A DNA stretch of 24,844 nt from a virus: positions 1 through 24,844 of IMG/VR virus record IMGVR_UViG_3300028897_000746, one strand, 5' to 3'. Made by a program: the position numbers and the translations under genes. Each line of letters opens with the position of its first letter. The first letter of the stretch is position 1. Under the pieces are notes generated by a model. The model saw only the letters and a list, made by a program, of their open reading frames with translations, was not told the DNA's origin and did no database searches. This document shows, piece after piece, positions 1 through 24,844 of the stretch.

Positions 1-314
1 ATGGAGAATTTTGGGTTTTCAAACCCTGGTCTTAAACAATAGTCAAACACACGCCCTGCTGCGTTATTATCTTCATCACCAAAAACAACTTCCGCTTCTC
101 CTTTCTTAGCAGGGAAATACTTGTAAAACTCTCTTAAATCTATAATAACTTCTTCCTTTGTGTCTTCAAAGTTATAATATTTTTTAAGCTTCAGAAACTC
201 GTCGTCATTCCAAAGTTCATTAACGAATTCTTCAGCTGTAAGTTCATCTGCGTGAACAGTAAGAATGAAAGATGTTGATGAGCTGTTCGTCACAAAGTCA
301 GTTTTTAGTCGCAT
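1..314 (-). CDS. FVTNSSSTSF N-terminal-motif protein A (partial, runs off the left edge)
   Basis: The first 104 residues are visible and the 3' end lies outside the window. The protein starts MRLKTDFVTNSSSTSFIL, the block shared with three other genes just upstream in the same operon. The rest is acidic and probably helical, with an Asp/Glu-rich central part and no recognisable domain. The ATG at 312-314 is chosen because a good AGGAGA ribosome site lies about 6 nt upstream and because the motif then begins at residue 1, as in the paralogues. Position: last gene seen in the leftward operon, 9 bp after gene B. Function unknown. The conserved N-terminus with divergent bodies suggests a shared recognition tag, but that is inference. 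Confidence 0.85.
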   Translation of the reverse strand, partial: MRLKTDFVTNSSSTSFILTVHADELTAEEFVNELWNDDEFLKLKKYYNFEDTKEEVIIDLREFYKYFPAKKGEAEVVFGDEDNNAAGRVFDYCLRPGFENPKFS

Positions 315-323
315 CTCGTCTCC

Positions 324-740
324 TTATCTTGGAACGTCTGCGCAAATTTCTCCAATTTGTGGATTTCTAATACCAATCTTTCGCAAAGATCTTCGAATCT
401 CTGCTTTGAATTCTCCTAAAGTTTGATGTTCTTCCATTGCAAATGGAGACTTTCCAACAAAGAAAGCTCCTATTTCAAAGTCACTTGCGTAGGTTAAATC
501 TGTTTCCTCTTCTAAAAAAGTCATGAAAACTTCAGCGAATATTTGTATGTCACTAAGAAGTTCTTCTGGTGTTTTATACTCAAGAAACACTTCTGGAAAA
601 ACATGAGTTGAAGAATATTTATCCCAGATGCGATTCAGTAACTTTTTCTTTCTCTTGATTTCAGAGATATTTAAGTCAATTCCCCACGCAACAAAGCTAG
701 TACTACTCGAGTTAGTTACAAAATCACACCTTATTTTCAT
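324..740 (-). CDS. FVTNSSSTSF N-terminal-motif protein B, 138 aa
   Basis: Starts MKIRCDFVTNSSSTSFVA. A longer in-frame reading back to 866 exists. I reject it because the internal ATG at 738-740 has a GGGAG site upstream, forms a TAATG junction with the preceding gene's stop, and puts the family motif at residue 1. After the motif come charged helices, then a segment reading roughly IGAFFVGKSP, then a C-terminal part with TLGEFKAEI and a short GIRNPQIG tail. Protein C has a matching order (a hydrophobic VG strand, an E-x-x-E/K helix, then a G/NI-x-x-P-x-I tail), so B and C are the closest pair. No catalytic motif seen. Function unknown. Confidence 0.85.
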   Translation of the reverse strand: MKIRCDFVTNSSSTSFVAWGIDLNISEIKRKKKLLNRIWDKYSSTHVFPEVFLEYKTPEELLSDIQIFAEVFMTFLEEETDLTYASDFEIGAFFVGKSPFAMEEHQTLGEFKAEIRRSLRKIGIRNPQIGEICADVPR

Positions 741-1222
741 TATGCACTCCCAGTTTCTTTTCTCTTTTCTCGGAAAATCCGTCTTTCTATTTGTATTGCC
801 ATCGCTTTCTTGGGAATAACCCCAGCAAGCGTAACTCTTTTTTGAACTCTTCCTCCTCCCGTCCAAATCTCATGACATCTTTCGAGTCGTCCTCTAATAA
901 CATCTTCTGCTTGTTCAGGGTCAACTGGATCAAGAACCGAACGTCGAGCAAAACCAAAATAACCGACTCCATTGTTGGTGTACATTTCAGCAAAAGTTAT
1001 GTCACCTTCGTCTTCAGGGAGAGGAATACTCCAAATCTTAACTTCAGTTATCTCGCTATCCCGCCTAAGAATTTTTCCATTATTCCTTTTCGCCTCCTTT
1101 TTTGAAGGAGGAATGCAAGGAAAAACATAATCCATAACCCTTACACATACGTCTTGGTGTTGGTCAGAAACAAGTTTGCCCTTCTCCCTCTTATCTTTTT
1201 TCTTCCTTCGTCTTGATGACAT
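740..1222 (-). CDS. Hypothetical protein, 160 aa, basic N-terminus
   Basis: I do not recognise this gene. The ATG at 1220-1222 follows an AAGGAGA site. The first 17 residues are very basic (RRRKKKDKREKGK), which could bind nucleic acid or be an unstructured leader. The body is alpha/beta in character, with an acidic PLPEDEGD stretch and a segment VLDPVDPEQAEDVIRGRLER that reads like an Asp/Pro turn leading into a helix. The C-terminus is again basic. It lacks the NSSSTSF block even though it sits between two genes that carry it. Its stop overlaps the start of gene B (TAATG), so translation of the two is probably coupled. Confidence 0.8.
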   Translation of the reverse strand: MSSRRRKKKDKREKGKLVSDQHQDVCVRVMDYVFPCIPPSKKEAKRNNGKILRRDSEITEVKIWSIPLPEDEGDITFAEMYTNNGVGYFGFARRSVLDPVDPEQAEDVIRGRLERCHEIWTGGGRVQKRVTLAGVIPKKAMAIQIERRIFREKRKETGSA

Positions 1223-1253
1223 TGAACTTCTCCTTTTGTTAAAGTTTTACACC

Positions 1254-1661
1254 TCACGTGTTAAACCAATTTGTTAAGATTTTGGGTCTCGACTTTATGT
1301 TAAACTTGTCTTTCGCTAACTTAAGCACTTCTCTCAACTCTTTCATTGAGAATTTCTCTTCTCTGTACTCGATAAGTTCGTCATTTGCTATAGAAATTCT
1401 CATTCCAACAAGTATAGTATCTTCATCTGGTGCGCCATGTTCCTCGCCAATCTGAAAACTTATTCCGTTATAACCAAAATGTCTTAGGTCATTGAATAAG
1501 TCTTCAGCATCTTCATCACTTAGTGTTTTAGGATCTTTTCCAAAAACTTTCGAAACTAATTCCTTTTGTCTTGAATAGACGTTAGGAAACTCTACCGCCC
1601 ATCCAATCATAACAAAGCTCGTGGAAGAGCTATTTGTTATAAAACAGCTTCTTAGTTTCAT
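1254..1661 (-). CDS. FVTNSSSTSF N-terminal-motif protein C, 135 aa
   Basis: Starts MKLRSCFITNSSSTSFVM, a slightly diverged copy of the family block (D to C and V to I). The start at 1659-1661 is chosen over an upstream in-frame ATG at 1707 because it aligns with the other family members and has a TGGGGA site. The body contains an acidic segment (DPKTLSDEDAEDLF), a strand around TILVGMRISI and a C-terminal helix followed by IKSRPKI, resembling the end of protein B. The first 32 bases overlap the end of gene D in another frame. Function unknown. Confidence 0.85.
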   Translation of the reverse strand: MKLRSCFITNSSSTSFVMIGWAVEFPNVYSRQKELVSKVFGKDPKTLSDEDAEDLFNDLRHFGYNGISFQIGEEHGAPDEDTILVGMRISIANDELIEYREEKFSMKELREVLKLAKDKFNIKSRPKILTNWFNT

Positions 1662-2112
1662 CAGAAATCCCCATTTCTCTGAAAAGTCTACCCATTTCTT
1701 CATGGTCACGTTGACGACCAGTTTTGGTCTTAAAGTCTCCTAAGTCCAAAAAGAAGGACTTTTCACGAAGAGCATATCCTTCTTTTTCTGTATCTACAAA
1801 TTGCGAAATTCTAAGTCCTCTGTGACTCCAGTCAGTATTGTTACATGTATCTACTCGGACATGAAACCAATCCCGATAAATGTAAGTCGTATAATTGGTT
1901 GTCCAAGGAATGATTATATTTCCACCGAACGTTTTGTTTCGCTTTAAGAACTGATTCATCCTCCTTTTTGACGGGTGCGTTTCTCTCCAATCTTCTTTCC
2001 ATTCAGCAAAGAAAATCTTTAACATATCTCTAGCAACTTCTATTGGAGTCGTATATCTGATTATGAATGAAGTGTTAGAGCTATTAGTTACAAAATCAGT
2101 TCTTAGTCGCAC
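1630..2112 (-). CDS. FVTNSSNTSF N-terminal-motif protein D, 160 aa, GTG start
   Basis: Starts at a GTG (2110-2112) and reads (M)RLRTDFVTNSSNTSFII, the family block with one Ser to Asn change. The GGAG site 8 nt upstream lies inside the end of the alpha-CTD gene, which overlaps by 10 bp. The body differs from A-C: it is rich in Trp, Arg and Asn/Thr (for example WTTNYTTYIYRDW) and looks mostly beta in the middle, with a helical C-terminus. No known domain recognised. Its 3' end overlaps the start of gene C by 32 bp, unusual even for this compact operon. Confidence 0.85.
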   Translation of the reverse strand: MRLRTDFVTNSSNTSFIIRYTTPIEVARDMLKIFFAEWKEDWRETHPSKRRMNQFLKRNKTFGGNIIIPWTTNYTTYIYRDWFHVRVDTCNNTDWSHRGLRISQFVDTEKEGYALREKSFFLDLGDFKTKTGRQRDHEEMGRLFREMGISDETKKLFYNK

Positions 2113-2564
2113 TTGACATCTCCTATACTCATTCCTAGTTCGAGGTCCTTCTCTTTCAGTTTTTCTACAACTTCAGTCAAGCTTTTCCTGCCAAACTTCT
2201 GAGTTGCTAAGAGCTCTGGCATAGTTTTTCTTACAAGTTCTCCAACTGTCTCAATCCCTGCATGACGAAGACAATTAGAAGTTCTTACAGAAAAATCAAA
2301 TTCATTAACATGTACATTAAGTATTGGCAAACTCTCTTTTGAAAACTCTTTCTCAAGGAACTTAAACAACGTTTCCCAAAGACTAGAGAAGTTAACTTGT
2401 TTACCTCGAGTAAGTCGTTCACCTGTACCGGCTTTCTCTCTAAAAACGCATACCCAGACTTTTTCACCTGATGATCCACTAATTTCTATATGTTGGTCTC
2501 CATGAGTAGCGAAAAAACAGTCAGCTTTCATTCTTACTCTCTTTTCTACTTTTGGAAAGTCCAT
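2103..2564 (-). CDS. Phage RNA polymerase alpha C-terminal-domain-like protein, 153 aa
   Basis: Residues about 80-147 match the C-terminal domain of bacterial RNA polymerase alpha, the part that binds UP-element DNA, activators and sigma region 4. Reading against E. coli alpha: VRTSNCLR (93-100) equals VRSANCLK, so R94=R265, N97=N268 and C98=C269. FGRKSLTE (124-131) equals LGKKSLTE, so G125=G296, K127=K298 and S128=S299. The 31-residue gap from R94 to G125 equals that from R265 to G296. Acidic E88/D90 fall where E. coli has D259/E261, the sigma-contact patch. The N-terminal 80 residues are not the alpha assembly domain and are not recognised. The ATG has a strong AGGAGG site. Likely role: a transcription modulator acting on host RNA polymerase or promoters; this part is inference. 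Confidence 0.88.
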   Translation of the reverse strand: MDFPKVEKRVRMKADCFFATHGDQHIEISGSSGEKVWVCVFREKAGTGERLTRGKQVNFSSLWETLFKFLEKEFSKESLPILNVHVNEFDFSVRTSNCLRHAGIETVGELVRKTMPELLATQKFGRKSLTEVVEKLKEKDLELGMSIGDVKCD

Positions 2565-2573
2565 AACATCCTC

Positions 2574-3554
2574 CTATAATCCATAAGGACAAGTCGTTGG
2601 ATTTTTAGACAATTTCTCTCTAACTTTTTGGAAAGGTTCTCCTGATTCCCAACAAGTTTTGATGTTACTTTTATCAAGAGGTAACCCATGAATATTCGAG
2701 TCAGCAAAAGAGCAAGGAACTAGCTTCATGTTGGGCGTGATATACACAGACATTCGACCACTTTCGCAAGAATCTAAGTACAATTTCTCTTCTTCTGTTA
2801 ACCTACTCACTTTATTAACTCTATTCACTAAACAACTATCCATCCCCACTTTAAACTTACATAGTCCTTTTCGAGCGAGTTTAATAAAGTGACTTACCAT
2901 ACGATCCTCAACTTGCCAGTGACCTAAGTTCTTAGCTCTACCTTGAGGTTTGAATAGCAAGAATATCACAGCGTTTAGTCGATCAACGTCAACCATTCCT
3001 CTCCATACATCTTCACCTTTCAATATTTGTAAAACTCGAATAAAAGAAGAAGAAGAAAAAAGAAAATGGATATTTGTTTTAATTCCTGCATCCATAAGAG
3101 CTTCTAGAGCCATGTAAGTGTAAGTTTGTCTGTAATCAGAAACAGCTACTGCGCCACATTGTTTAGAGATTTCAACTTCATCTTTGGTAAGAAGTCTTCC
3201 AGATGTAGTGTAGTTGGGGACAACTATATTCTTAACTGAATATTCCACTATCTCTTTGAAGTTCTTGTGTTTATTTGGATCTCCTCGACCGCCTAAAGCT
3301 ATCTGGTTTACAAAAGGTTTACCTTCGTTAATGATACGCTTGTAATCCCCTAACTCCATGTTTGTCTCGTTCTTATCACCCTGGTAACAAAAATAACATT
3401 CGTTGTGACAATGGCCCATTATACCACAGTCAATCATACATGGAAAGTCAAGTCGAAAAGGATCTGGGTGACCATTTATTCCTTGTATAACTTCGAATCC
3501 AGTTTCCGTATCAAAAATTGTAGAATAAGTCTCGGTTCTGAACAACTTGATCAC
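2574..3554 (-). CDS. Radical SAM enzyme with SPASM-like C-terminal domain, 326 aa
   Basis: Carries the radical SAM iron-sulfur motif CxxxCxxC as C49-x3-C53-x2-C56 (CHNECYFC), followed by a GGRGDP segment (88-93) where the SAM-binding GGE motif belongs. The C-terminal third has six cysteines (232, 241, 263, 281, 301, 322), including CESGRMSVYITPNMKLVPC, typical of the SPASM/twitch auxiliary-cluster region of peptide-modifying radical SAM enzymes. The GTG at 3552-3554 is preferred because it lies 6 nt from AAAGGAGG; a TTG two codons earlier directly abuts the site. Family knowledge: such enzymes usually modify peptides or RiPP precursors. It is the second gene of the leftward operon, 9 bp before the alpha-CTD gene. 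Its substrate is unknown; the neighbouring NSSSTSF proteins are a testable guess. Confidence 0.88.
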   Translation of the reverse strand: MIKLFRTETYSTIFDTETGFEVIQGINGHPDPFRLDFPCMIDCGIMGHCHNECYFCYQGDKNETNMELGDYKRIINEGKPFVNQIALGGRGDPNKHKNFKEIVEYSVKNIVVPNYTTSGRLLTKDEVEISKQCGAVAVSDYRQTYTYMALEALMDAGIKTNIHFLFSSSSFIRVLQILKGEDVWRGMVDVDRLNAVIFLLFKPQGRAKNLGHWQVEDRMVSHFIKLARKGLCKFKVGMDSCLVNRVNKVSRLTEEEKLYLDSCESGRMSVYITPNMKLVPCSFADSNIHGLPLDKSNIKTCWESGEPFQKVREKLSKNPTTCPYGL

Positions 3555-3566
3555 AACCAACCTCCT

Positions 3567-24171: not shown

Positions 24172-24549
24172 TTACCCCGCTTCTCCTAATGGAACTACTT
24201 TCTCAGCACAAATACAGTGTCTTCTAGTAACCTCTTCTATTCCCAACCGATATTTTGTTCCTACTGGGATTTCCATCCTTAATAAACATACAGTAGAGTT
24301 CCTATGGAAGTGGCCTTTCTTCGAATACATAAATATTCCAGGCGTCTTTTCCATATCAGACTCCGAAACTTCTCCAATCTTATAGGAAACAATTTCGCCT
24401 TTGTTTGTGTAGCCTCTTTGAACTAACCTAGCATGAGGCATCCATCGAGAGTAGAAAATTGAATAAATTAACTCTGGATGTGTAACTTCCTTAAATGCAA
24501 ATCTTCTTCTTTTTGTTCGTTTAATTTTCGTAGTAAACTTTACACACAT
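24172..24549 (-). CDS. Hypothetical protein, paralogue of the next gene, 125 aa
   Basis: The ATG at 24547-24549 with AAAGGAA about 8 nt upstream is preferred to an in-frame TTG at 24573. The C-terminal 70 residues align with the upstream neighbour: GEVSESDMEKTPGIFMY with GKLTKSEMPKTPGLYLY, and RRHCICAEKVVPL with GRHCICAEKIIPL. The N-terminus is very basic (TTKIKRTKRRRF). The shared HCIC cysteine/histidine cluster may bind metal. No known family recognised. It arose by tandem duplication and is the second gene visible in its operon. Confidence 0.78.
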   Translation of the reverse strand: MCVKFTTKIKRTKRRRFAFKEVTHPELIYSIFYSRWMPHARLVQRGYTNKGEIVSYKIGEVSESDMEKTPGIFMYSKKGHFHRNSTVCLLRMEIPVGTKYRLGIEEVTRRHCICAEKVVPLGEAG

Positions 24550-24550
24550 T

Positions 24551-24844
24551 TTAACATTCCTTTCTTTGGACAACTTTTAGTGGAATAATCTTCTCAGCGC
24601 AGATACAGTGTCTTCCTGCAACACCAAGTCCAAGGCGAATTTTTGTTTTACTAGGTATCTTAACTCGTAAGATACACTGACTACTATTAGTTTCTAGCGT
24701 TCTATAACGTTTGTACAAATACAAGCCTGGAGTCTTTGGCATTTCTGACTTTGTTAACTTCCCAAGATCATAAAATAACTCTTTCCCACATCCTTTGTGT
24801 ACCCAGTGGTTCAAACCGAATTGAGAAGTTCTATTTGCTGGTGG
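24551..24844 (-). CDS. Hypothetical protein, paralogue of 24172-24549 (partial, 5' end outside the window)
   Basis: The frame is open to the right edge, giving at least 97 residues beginning PPANRTSQFG. A TTG at 24812-24814 exists but has no ribosome site, and the segment before it still aligns with the paralogue (MPHARLVQRGY), so the true start lies outside the window. The core ends in GRHCICAEKIIPL. Its stop is 1 bp before the next gene's start. Function unknown. Confidence 0.75.
   Translation of the reverse strand, partial: PPANRTSQFGLNHWVHKGCGKELFYDLGKLTKSEMPKTPGLYLYKRYRTLETNSSQCILRVKIPSKTKIRLGLGVAGRHCICAEKIIPLKVVQRKEC

Follow-up and report, generated by a model that had tools for sequence, protein, structure and literature searches.

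The 24,844-base virus fragment analysed here (IMG/VR record IMGVR_UViG_3300028897_000746, hereafter the window) encodes myovirus tail, baseplate and terminase genes together with four neighbouring proteins, P1 to P4, that share an N-terminal block of 16 residues (the tag), and, separated from P4 by one gene, a radical S-adenosylmethionine (SAM) enzyme. Enzymes of one such family accompany this N-terminal tag in different domains of life and in phages as well as hosts. The block very probably marks proteins as substrates of a dedicated radical-SAM enzyme of the SPASM/twitch type, as a portable N-terminal tag whose Thr-Asn-Ser-Ser-Ser (TNSSS) segment is modified by the enzyme. The genes concerned are as follows.

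3-314, minus strand: P1, tagged protein of at least 104 amino acids, open at the window end; tag MRLKTDFVTNSSSTSF; tail in cluster 19
324-740, minus strand: P2, tagged protein of 138 amino acids; tag MKIRCDFVTNSSSTSF; tail in cluster 3, with 24 other proteins
1254-1661, minus strand: P3, tagged protein of 135 amino acids; tag MKLRSCFITNSSSTSF; tail a singleton
1630-2112, minus strand: P4, tagged protein of 160 amino acids with a GTG start; N-terminus (M)RLRTDFVTNSSNTSF, tag VRLRTDFVTNSSNTSF; tail in cluster 25, with tails from loci L059 and L098
2574-3560, minus strand: radical-SAM enzyme of 328 amino acids; TTG start as listed, with an in-frame GTG two codons on that is better spaced from GGAGG

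Four tagged proteins in a phage fragment

The common start M-[KR]-[LI]-[KR]-x-[DC]-F-[VI]-T-N-S-S-[SN]-T-S-F, described in an earlier note made from the sequence, is confirmed in all four neighbours, the first of which occupies 3-314. The pattern F-[VIM]-T-N-[ST]x5-F matches three of the four, with none expected from 100 shuffles; the fourth escapes it through an Asn at position 13. Any two of these tags have 10-13 of 16 residues in common but only 24-36 of 48 bases, and 4-9 of the identical residues are encoded by different codons, which bears out the contention that selection acts on the peptide rather than on the DNA. A nucleic-acid signal (a translation start context or a recombination hotspot) that encodes the block incidentally would agree with the position of the block exactly at the gene start. 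Its probability is negligible: the window tags differ at 12-24 of 48 bases, and among all tags collected below AGY and TCN codons are about equally frequent at every serine (190/234, 262/162, 214/204 and 216/171). Codon use rules out such a signal and likewise a recent duplication.

Behind the tag, the four proteins fall into four different tail clusters, with 1-11 ungapped identities in 83 positions, the chance level, and an hhalign probability of at most 1.1% for any pair. The earlier statement that they diverge almost completely holds with one reservation, namely, that the P3 tail faintly resembles the family of P2 (6 bits), so that these two may be distant paralogues, judging by sequence. 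The possibility that the block is just the conserved part of one ordinary fold common to all four is unsupported by tail clustering and profile comparison; the structural model that bears on it is that of P2. In this AlphaFold2 model (predicted local distance difference test, pLDDT, 87), residues 1-14 are of low confidence and the first strand, and with it the fold, begins at F16; the tag of P2 is thus predicted to be a flexible tail preceding a small alpha/beta domain. No useful match indicates a function for this fold: the best PDB hit has Z 3.9, and the single viral match is a weak one to an uncharacterised Pithovirus protein (E 3e-3). Close relatives of P1, of a zinc-finger-like tagged protein and of a large-phage enzyme were not found by tblastn against isolated phages.

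Linkage of the tag to one radical-SAM family

A recurring partner gene, which the earlier note expected to name the recogniser of the block, exists: a single radical-SAM family is encoded in the window and beside tagged genes in phages, bacteria and archaea. When viral contigs were searched with the window enzyme alone, and hence independently of the tag, 10 loci were recovered, 7 of which encode, directly downstream, one or two proteins starting MKxKxDFVTNSSSSSF. Plasmids searched in the same manner yielded records from Agrobacterium, Rhizobium and Rhodobacter (34-37% identity), and in all four records inspected a protein annotated as hypothetical and starting MK[IL]K[ML]DFVSNSSSTSF is encoded directly upstream of the enzyme.

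The reciprocal search, with the tag pattern M-x4-D-F-V-T-N-[ST...]x5-F only, recovered at least 119 viral and at least 118 cellular stretches. The enzyme, scored with a profile from eight phage radical-SAM proteins only, lies at most 3 kb from a tag in 78 of 118 viral and 91 of 118 cellular stretches (169 among the matches listed), and many of the remaining stretches end at a fragment boundary. Of the genes of at least 250 amino acids in the cellular stretches, 267 lie no more than 2 kb from a tag and 155 farther off; the enzyme family accounts for 78 of the former and for none of the latter. Where the tagged stretch itself lacks the enzyme, 16 of 25 genomes encode it elsewhere, as do 12 of 20 viral records, including all six longer than 150 kb.

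Co-occurrence was assessed across 295 genomes of one clostridial order (that of L187). Of these, 14 carry the enzyme (E up to 1e-25) and 10 match the tag pattern; one of the 10 matches arose by chance and contains a stop codon. All nine true tag genomes carry the enzyme (~5e-14, hypergeometric). Of the five remaining enzyme genomes, two encode variant tags adjoining the enzyme (DFVTNSSSVSY and DFVTNSSSTSY), two are truncated at a contig end and one is a weak distant match.

The same linkage bears on the reading of the block as a localisation, assembly or partner-binding epitope that is recognised by the radical-SAM protein or by a third party and remains chemically unchanged. Such an epitope would fit the tagged genes that lie far from the enzyme gene within the same phage or bacterial genome, and the hydrophobic, signal-like segment right behind the tag in four cargoes from clostridial operons. 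The sole partner that recurs in all lineages is, however, a radical-SAM enzyme with invariant cluster-binding cysteines, and we consider an unmodified epitope very unlikely.

An enzyme of the SPASM/twitch type

The window enzyme is a member of the radical-SAM superfamily, given its cluster motif and an AlphaFold2 model (pLDDT 94.7) that matches many radical-SAM structures, and its auxiliary-cluster cysteines place it in the SPASM/twitch subfamily. In a 29-member alignment of the family, C51-x3-C55-x2-C58 (CxxxCxxC) is invariant, and so are C243, C265, C283 and C324. The phage enzyme is of the twitch type, without the last SPASM cysteines, and cellular members carry the rest of the SPASM set. 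Pfam Radical_SAM matches it just below the gathering threshold (E 2.5e-6, 28.2 bits), Pfam SPASM is above the cut-off in the relatives from L187, L168 and L164 and not in the window enzyme, and none of the NCBIfam radical-SAM maturase models accepts it (best 32-69 bits versus cut-offs of 265-650).

The closest structural neighbour of the model is SuiB (Z 25.9, 306 residues aligned), which is likewise the best profile-based sequence match (E 1e-13), followed by SkfB (Z 23.5), PqqE (20.7) and anSME (20.2), with ChlB also among the top neighbours; all of these enzymes modify peptides or proteins. No PqqD-like Pfam match is present in the window enzyme; a small N-terminal beta sheet aligns to the SuiB N-terminus. 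In a quick tree, the enzyme falls inside a phage clade that includes one contig binned to Lokiarchaeota and adjoins a clade of clostridia and large phages; the enzymes of the NACHT operon described below form a third clade.

Several family members depart from this arrangement. In clostridial enzymes (L187, L212, L228 and others) and in viral L072 and L114, the first cysteine motif is widened by insertions; that of L187 reads C-x7-C-x6-C, and this protein is missed by Pfam Radical_SAM. The radical-SAM gene at 6548-8373 of L013 is interrupted by an insert of ~0.7 kb with an endonuclease-like reading frame, which suggests a group I intron or a homing insertion. A distant radical-SAM relative is annotated in pseudotevenviruses, for example, Escherichia phage Lw1 (L014, 7929-9083; 26% identity).

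Diversity of the tagged proteins

After removal of the first 17 residues, the tails of 410 tagged proteins form 88 clusters (53 singletons), and profile-profile comparisons of the larger clusters revealed one clearly related pair among 190. The tagged proteins range from about 60 to 919 amino acids, and most tails have the size of a globular domain. Known domains are missing from most cargoes; a few contain BspA-type leucine-rich repeats (LRR), BRCT domains or a beta-propeller, and from these single matches it follows only that the cargoes differ. No family common to the tagged proteins emerged from Pfam, NCBIfam, PADLOC or PDB sequence searches, and the tag appears to be borne by about ninety otherwise unrelated kinds of protein. 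The mention in the earlier note of a similar block in Firmicutes proteins is correct but too narrow, given that other bacteria, archaea and phages carry it as well.

The tag and the probable site of modification

The profile of the tag, derived from 436 candidates, is M-[KR]-[IVFLY]-[RK]-x-D-[FY]-[VI]-T-N-S-S-S-[STACV]-[SCAN]-[FY]. At positions 11-15 the search pattern allowed Ser, Thr, Cys, Arg or Trp, yet Ser occupies both position 11 and position 12 in each of the 352 pattern matches. Across 70 diverse tagged proteins, invariance is confined to M1, T9, N10, S11 and S12 and does not reach any tail column, which makes a modification site outside the tag unlikely. The alphaproteobacterial plasmids have Ser at position 9, so that with Thr or Ser the hydroxyl is kept. 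When the requirement for a start codon was dropped, every match but one had a start six codons ahead of the Phe, and the exception was the chance match with a stop codon mentioned above; the tag is restricted to the N-terminus.

These data, along with the diversity of the tails, also bear on the reading in which the block serves as a docking leader only and the enzyme modifies residues elsewhere in each protein, as in the biosynthesis of ribosomally synthesized and post-translationally modified peptides (RiPP). SPASM maturases such as SuiB use leader peptides, and the fold match to SuiB agrees with such a role. Furthermore, a C-terminal His (in KH, HH or HMG) is seen in several unrelated tail families (L019, L028, L036, L061, L177, L199, L206 and others), a possible second site. 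His is among the last three residues of most members in 8 of the 88 tail clusters, and a composite site formed by the C-terminal His and the N-terminal tag is conceivable. However, conservation does not extend to any tail column across families, the tails are mostly domain-sized and some reach 919 amino acids, and no protease or exporter recurs beside the enzyme-tag pair among the neighbouring families examined. Moreover, the Ser-Ser-Ser is retained in its position, whereas binding alone would tolerate more change. A leader without modification of the tag is, in our assessment, improbable.

Among the functions that the earlier note had listed, namely, a leader, a modification site, a localisation tag or a binding epitope, the partner enzyme favours the modification site, possibly combined with a leader function. 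We infer that the enzyme does not just bind the tag but modifies it. The most likely site lies within Asn10-Ser13, for three reasons: conservation is confined to this stretch, the stretch is disordered in the P2 model, and enzymes of similar structure act on peptides. Under this scheme, the enzyme encoded at 2574-3560 would bind the tag via its basic-hydrophobic-basic-x-Asp-aromatic part and would introduce a radical-initiated modification in the unstructured Thr-Asn-Ser-Ser-Ser, just before the folded domain. The main candidate chemistries are conversion of Ser to formylglycine, formation of an ether or a C-C/C-N ring with Asn or Ser, and epimerisation. A single enzyme-tag pair would thereby serve unrelated cargo, including small phage proteins, members of a NACHT-ATPase operon and large cellular proteins. 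Formylglycine formation through Ser/Cys exchange at position 15 looked promising at first and was set aside because Ala, Asn and Leu occur there.

Several points weigh against modification of the tag. The argument for it draws on the linkage and the enzyme family. D, F, V, T, N and the final F were fixed by the search pattern, so that conservation at these positions, such as that of Asp at residue 6 in 429 of the 436 candidates, is partly by construction. Since Ala, Val, Asn and Leu occur at positions 14 and 15, these two are not the site. Three of the ten viral loci (L004-L006) encode the enzyme with no tag within the fragment; in the other 9 of the 25 tagged genomes mentioned above, mostly draft metagenome assemblies, the enzyme was not found; and in phage Lw1 the tag is absent from the entire 176 kb despite the distant enzyme homologue.

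Genomic settings and the NACHT operon

The enzyme and the tag occur in several settings. Phage sets combine a single enzyme gene with a number of tagged genes that ranges from one to six or more; the phage records reach 504 kb. Two-gene enzyme-tag pairs, often adjoining a helix-turn-helix gene, are found in Lachnospiraceae and relatives, and large LRR and other tagged proteins in Ruminococcus and relatives. A fixed four-gene operon encodes a NACHT/STAND ATPase, a protein of ~135 amino acids, a tagged protein of ~138 amino acids and the enzyme. It is present in 22 cellular loci from Firmicutes, Bacteroidota, Sulfurimonas, Omnitrophota and methanogens, and the same operon resides on alphaproteobacterial plasmids (Agrobacterium, Rhizobium and Rhodobacter; L306-L309). 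The ATPase matches Avs2 models (E 1.7e-22) over residues 379-854, the ATPase core, and NACHT at 3.9e-5, below gathering; PADLOC matched the ATPase alone and left the small tagged protein unmatched. The operon looks like a defence system not described before. Many cellular enzyme-tag pairs have no NACHT gene, and none is present in the window.

A further clostridial operon (L153, L174, L189, L214 and L228) encodes a protein of ~290 amino acids of the multi-membrane type, the enzyme and a tagged protein with a hydrophobic segment directly behind the tag, to which all of these loci but L189 add a protein of ~320 amino acids. The loci of the four-gene operon and the remaining features of the window are given below.

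L137, L139, L143, L158, L167, L168, L181, L188, L198, L211, L232, L239, L246: four-gene NACHT operon
740-1222, minus strand: untagged protein of 160 amino acids between P3 and P2, a putative member of the system; no family match and no homologue in other tagged loci
2103-2564, minus strand: untagged protein with an RNA polymerase alpha C-terminal domain (Pfam RNA_pol_A_CTD, E 2e-21) between the radical-SAM gene and P4, a putative member; homologues absent from other tagged loci
24172-24573 and 24551-24814, minus strand: small tandem paralogues with a common C-terminal block ...RHCICAEK[VI][VI]PL

The defence setting, together with the phage sets, makes a role of the modified tail in conflict a plausible hypothesis. 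More specifically, the phage sets might act in counter-defence, by imitating the tagged protein of the host NACHT operon or by competing for its enzyme, a reading that concerns purpose and is compatible with modification of the tag. The occurrence of the same enzyme family and tag in the 22 Avs2-like NACHT loci and on the Agrobacterium and Rhizobium plasmids speaks for it, and so do the multiple tagged genes, up to six or more per phage genome, and one pair of related large phage records in which tags are present and the enzyme was not found. Nevertheless, few large phage records lack an enzyme gene of their own, phage tails lie mostly outside the NACHT-operon cluster 0, and the abundance of cellular pairs without a NACHT gene also counts against this purpose, which we regard as rather unlikely. 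A broader proposal, which we advance tentatively and which could well be correct, is that of a previously unknown general protein-tagging system in which one radical-SAM family installs a new N-terminal modification on some ninety unrelated protein families of bacteria, archaea and giant phages, including those of a new NACHT defence operon, with phages deploying tagged sets of their own in the same arms race.

Hundreds of 'hypothetical proteins' that otherwise have no common feature are now tied to one enzyme and one tag, and an unexplained motif becomes a direct question for mass spectrometry. Should the tag indeed be modified, phages, bacteria and archaea would possess a radical-SAM chemistry that acts on intact folded proteins instead of one that makes natural products. 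Such a modification might play a part in phage biology and in NACHT-type immunity, and the tag could be put to use as a genetically encoded label for proteins.

Comparison with known systems

Both components have counterparts in PHROGs, where they are not linked to each other: phrog_7293 corresponds to the radical-SAM family (E 2.1e-25) and phrog_7397 weakly matches the tag region (E 0.014-0.22), each under 'unknown function'. The motif string was not found in open-access full text, and closed literature may hold it; no description linking radical SAM with NACHT operons or phage tags was found in the open-access literature, so that priority is uncertain.

The large protein of the cellular four-gene operon resembles Avs2 and other NACHT STAND ATPases in its ATPase core. 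Anaerobic sulfatase-maturating enzymes are similar in that a radical-SAM enzyme acts on Ser or Cys within a protein, and position 15 of the tag is often Ser or Cys. This likeness is weak, in that Ala, Asn and Leu are also found at that position, and the C/S-x-P/A-x-R motif is absent from the tag DFVTNSSSSSF.

In the sortase/LPXTG and exosortase/PEP-CTERM systems, a short terminal tag on many unrelated proteins is served by one dedicated enzyme per genome. The combination of a portable terminal tag and a single dedicated enzyme in the same genome is common to these systems and the one described here; here, in contrast, the tag lies at the N-terminus and is in most cases cytosolic, and a radical-SAM protein takes the place of the transpeptidase.

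A further parallel is with SuiB, SkfB, PqqE, anSME and ChlB, which have in common with the window enzyme the fold over almost the whole chain, the CxxxCxxC motif, auxiliary-cluster cysteines and an adjoining gene for the substrate, a putative one in the present case. The identity to SuiB-type enzymes is only 10-15%, and the phage enzyme differs in the missing last SPASM cysteines. The substrates of SuiB-type enzymes are short precursor peptides, whereas here they would be whole folded proteins that have only the N-terminal tag in common. In place of the short leader and core precursor of RiPP systems there are 88 tail clusters with folded domains (LRR, BRCT, beta-propeller), and no dedicated peptidase or exporter recurs next to the pair. 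By the tests made, the enzyme-tag system is not a RiPP system, yet it resembles a SPASM maturase with a leader-like recognition tag.

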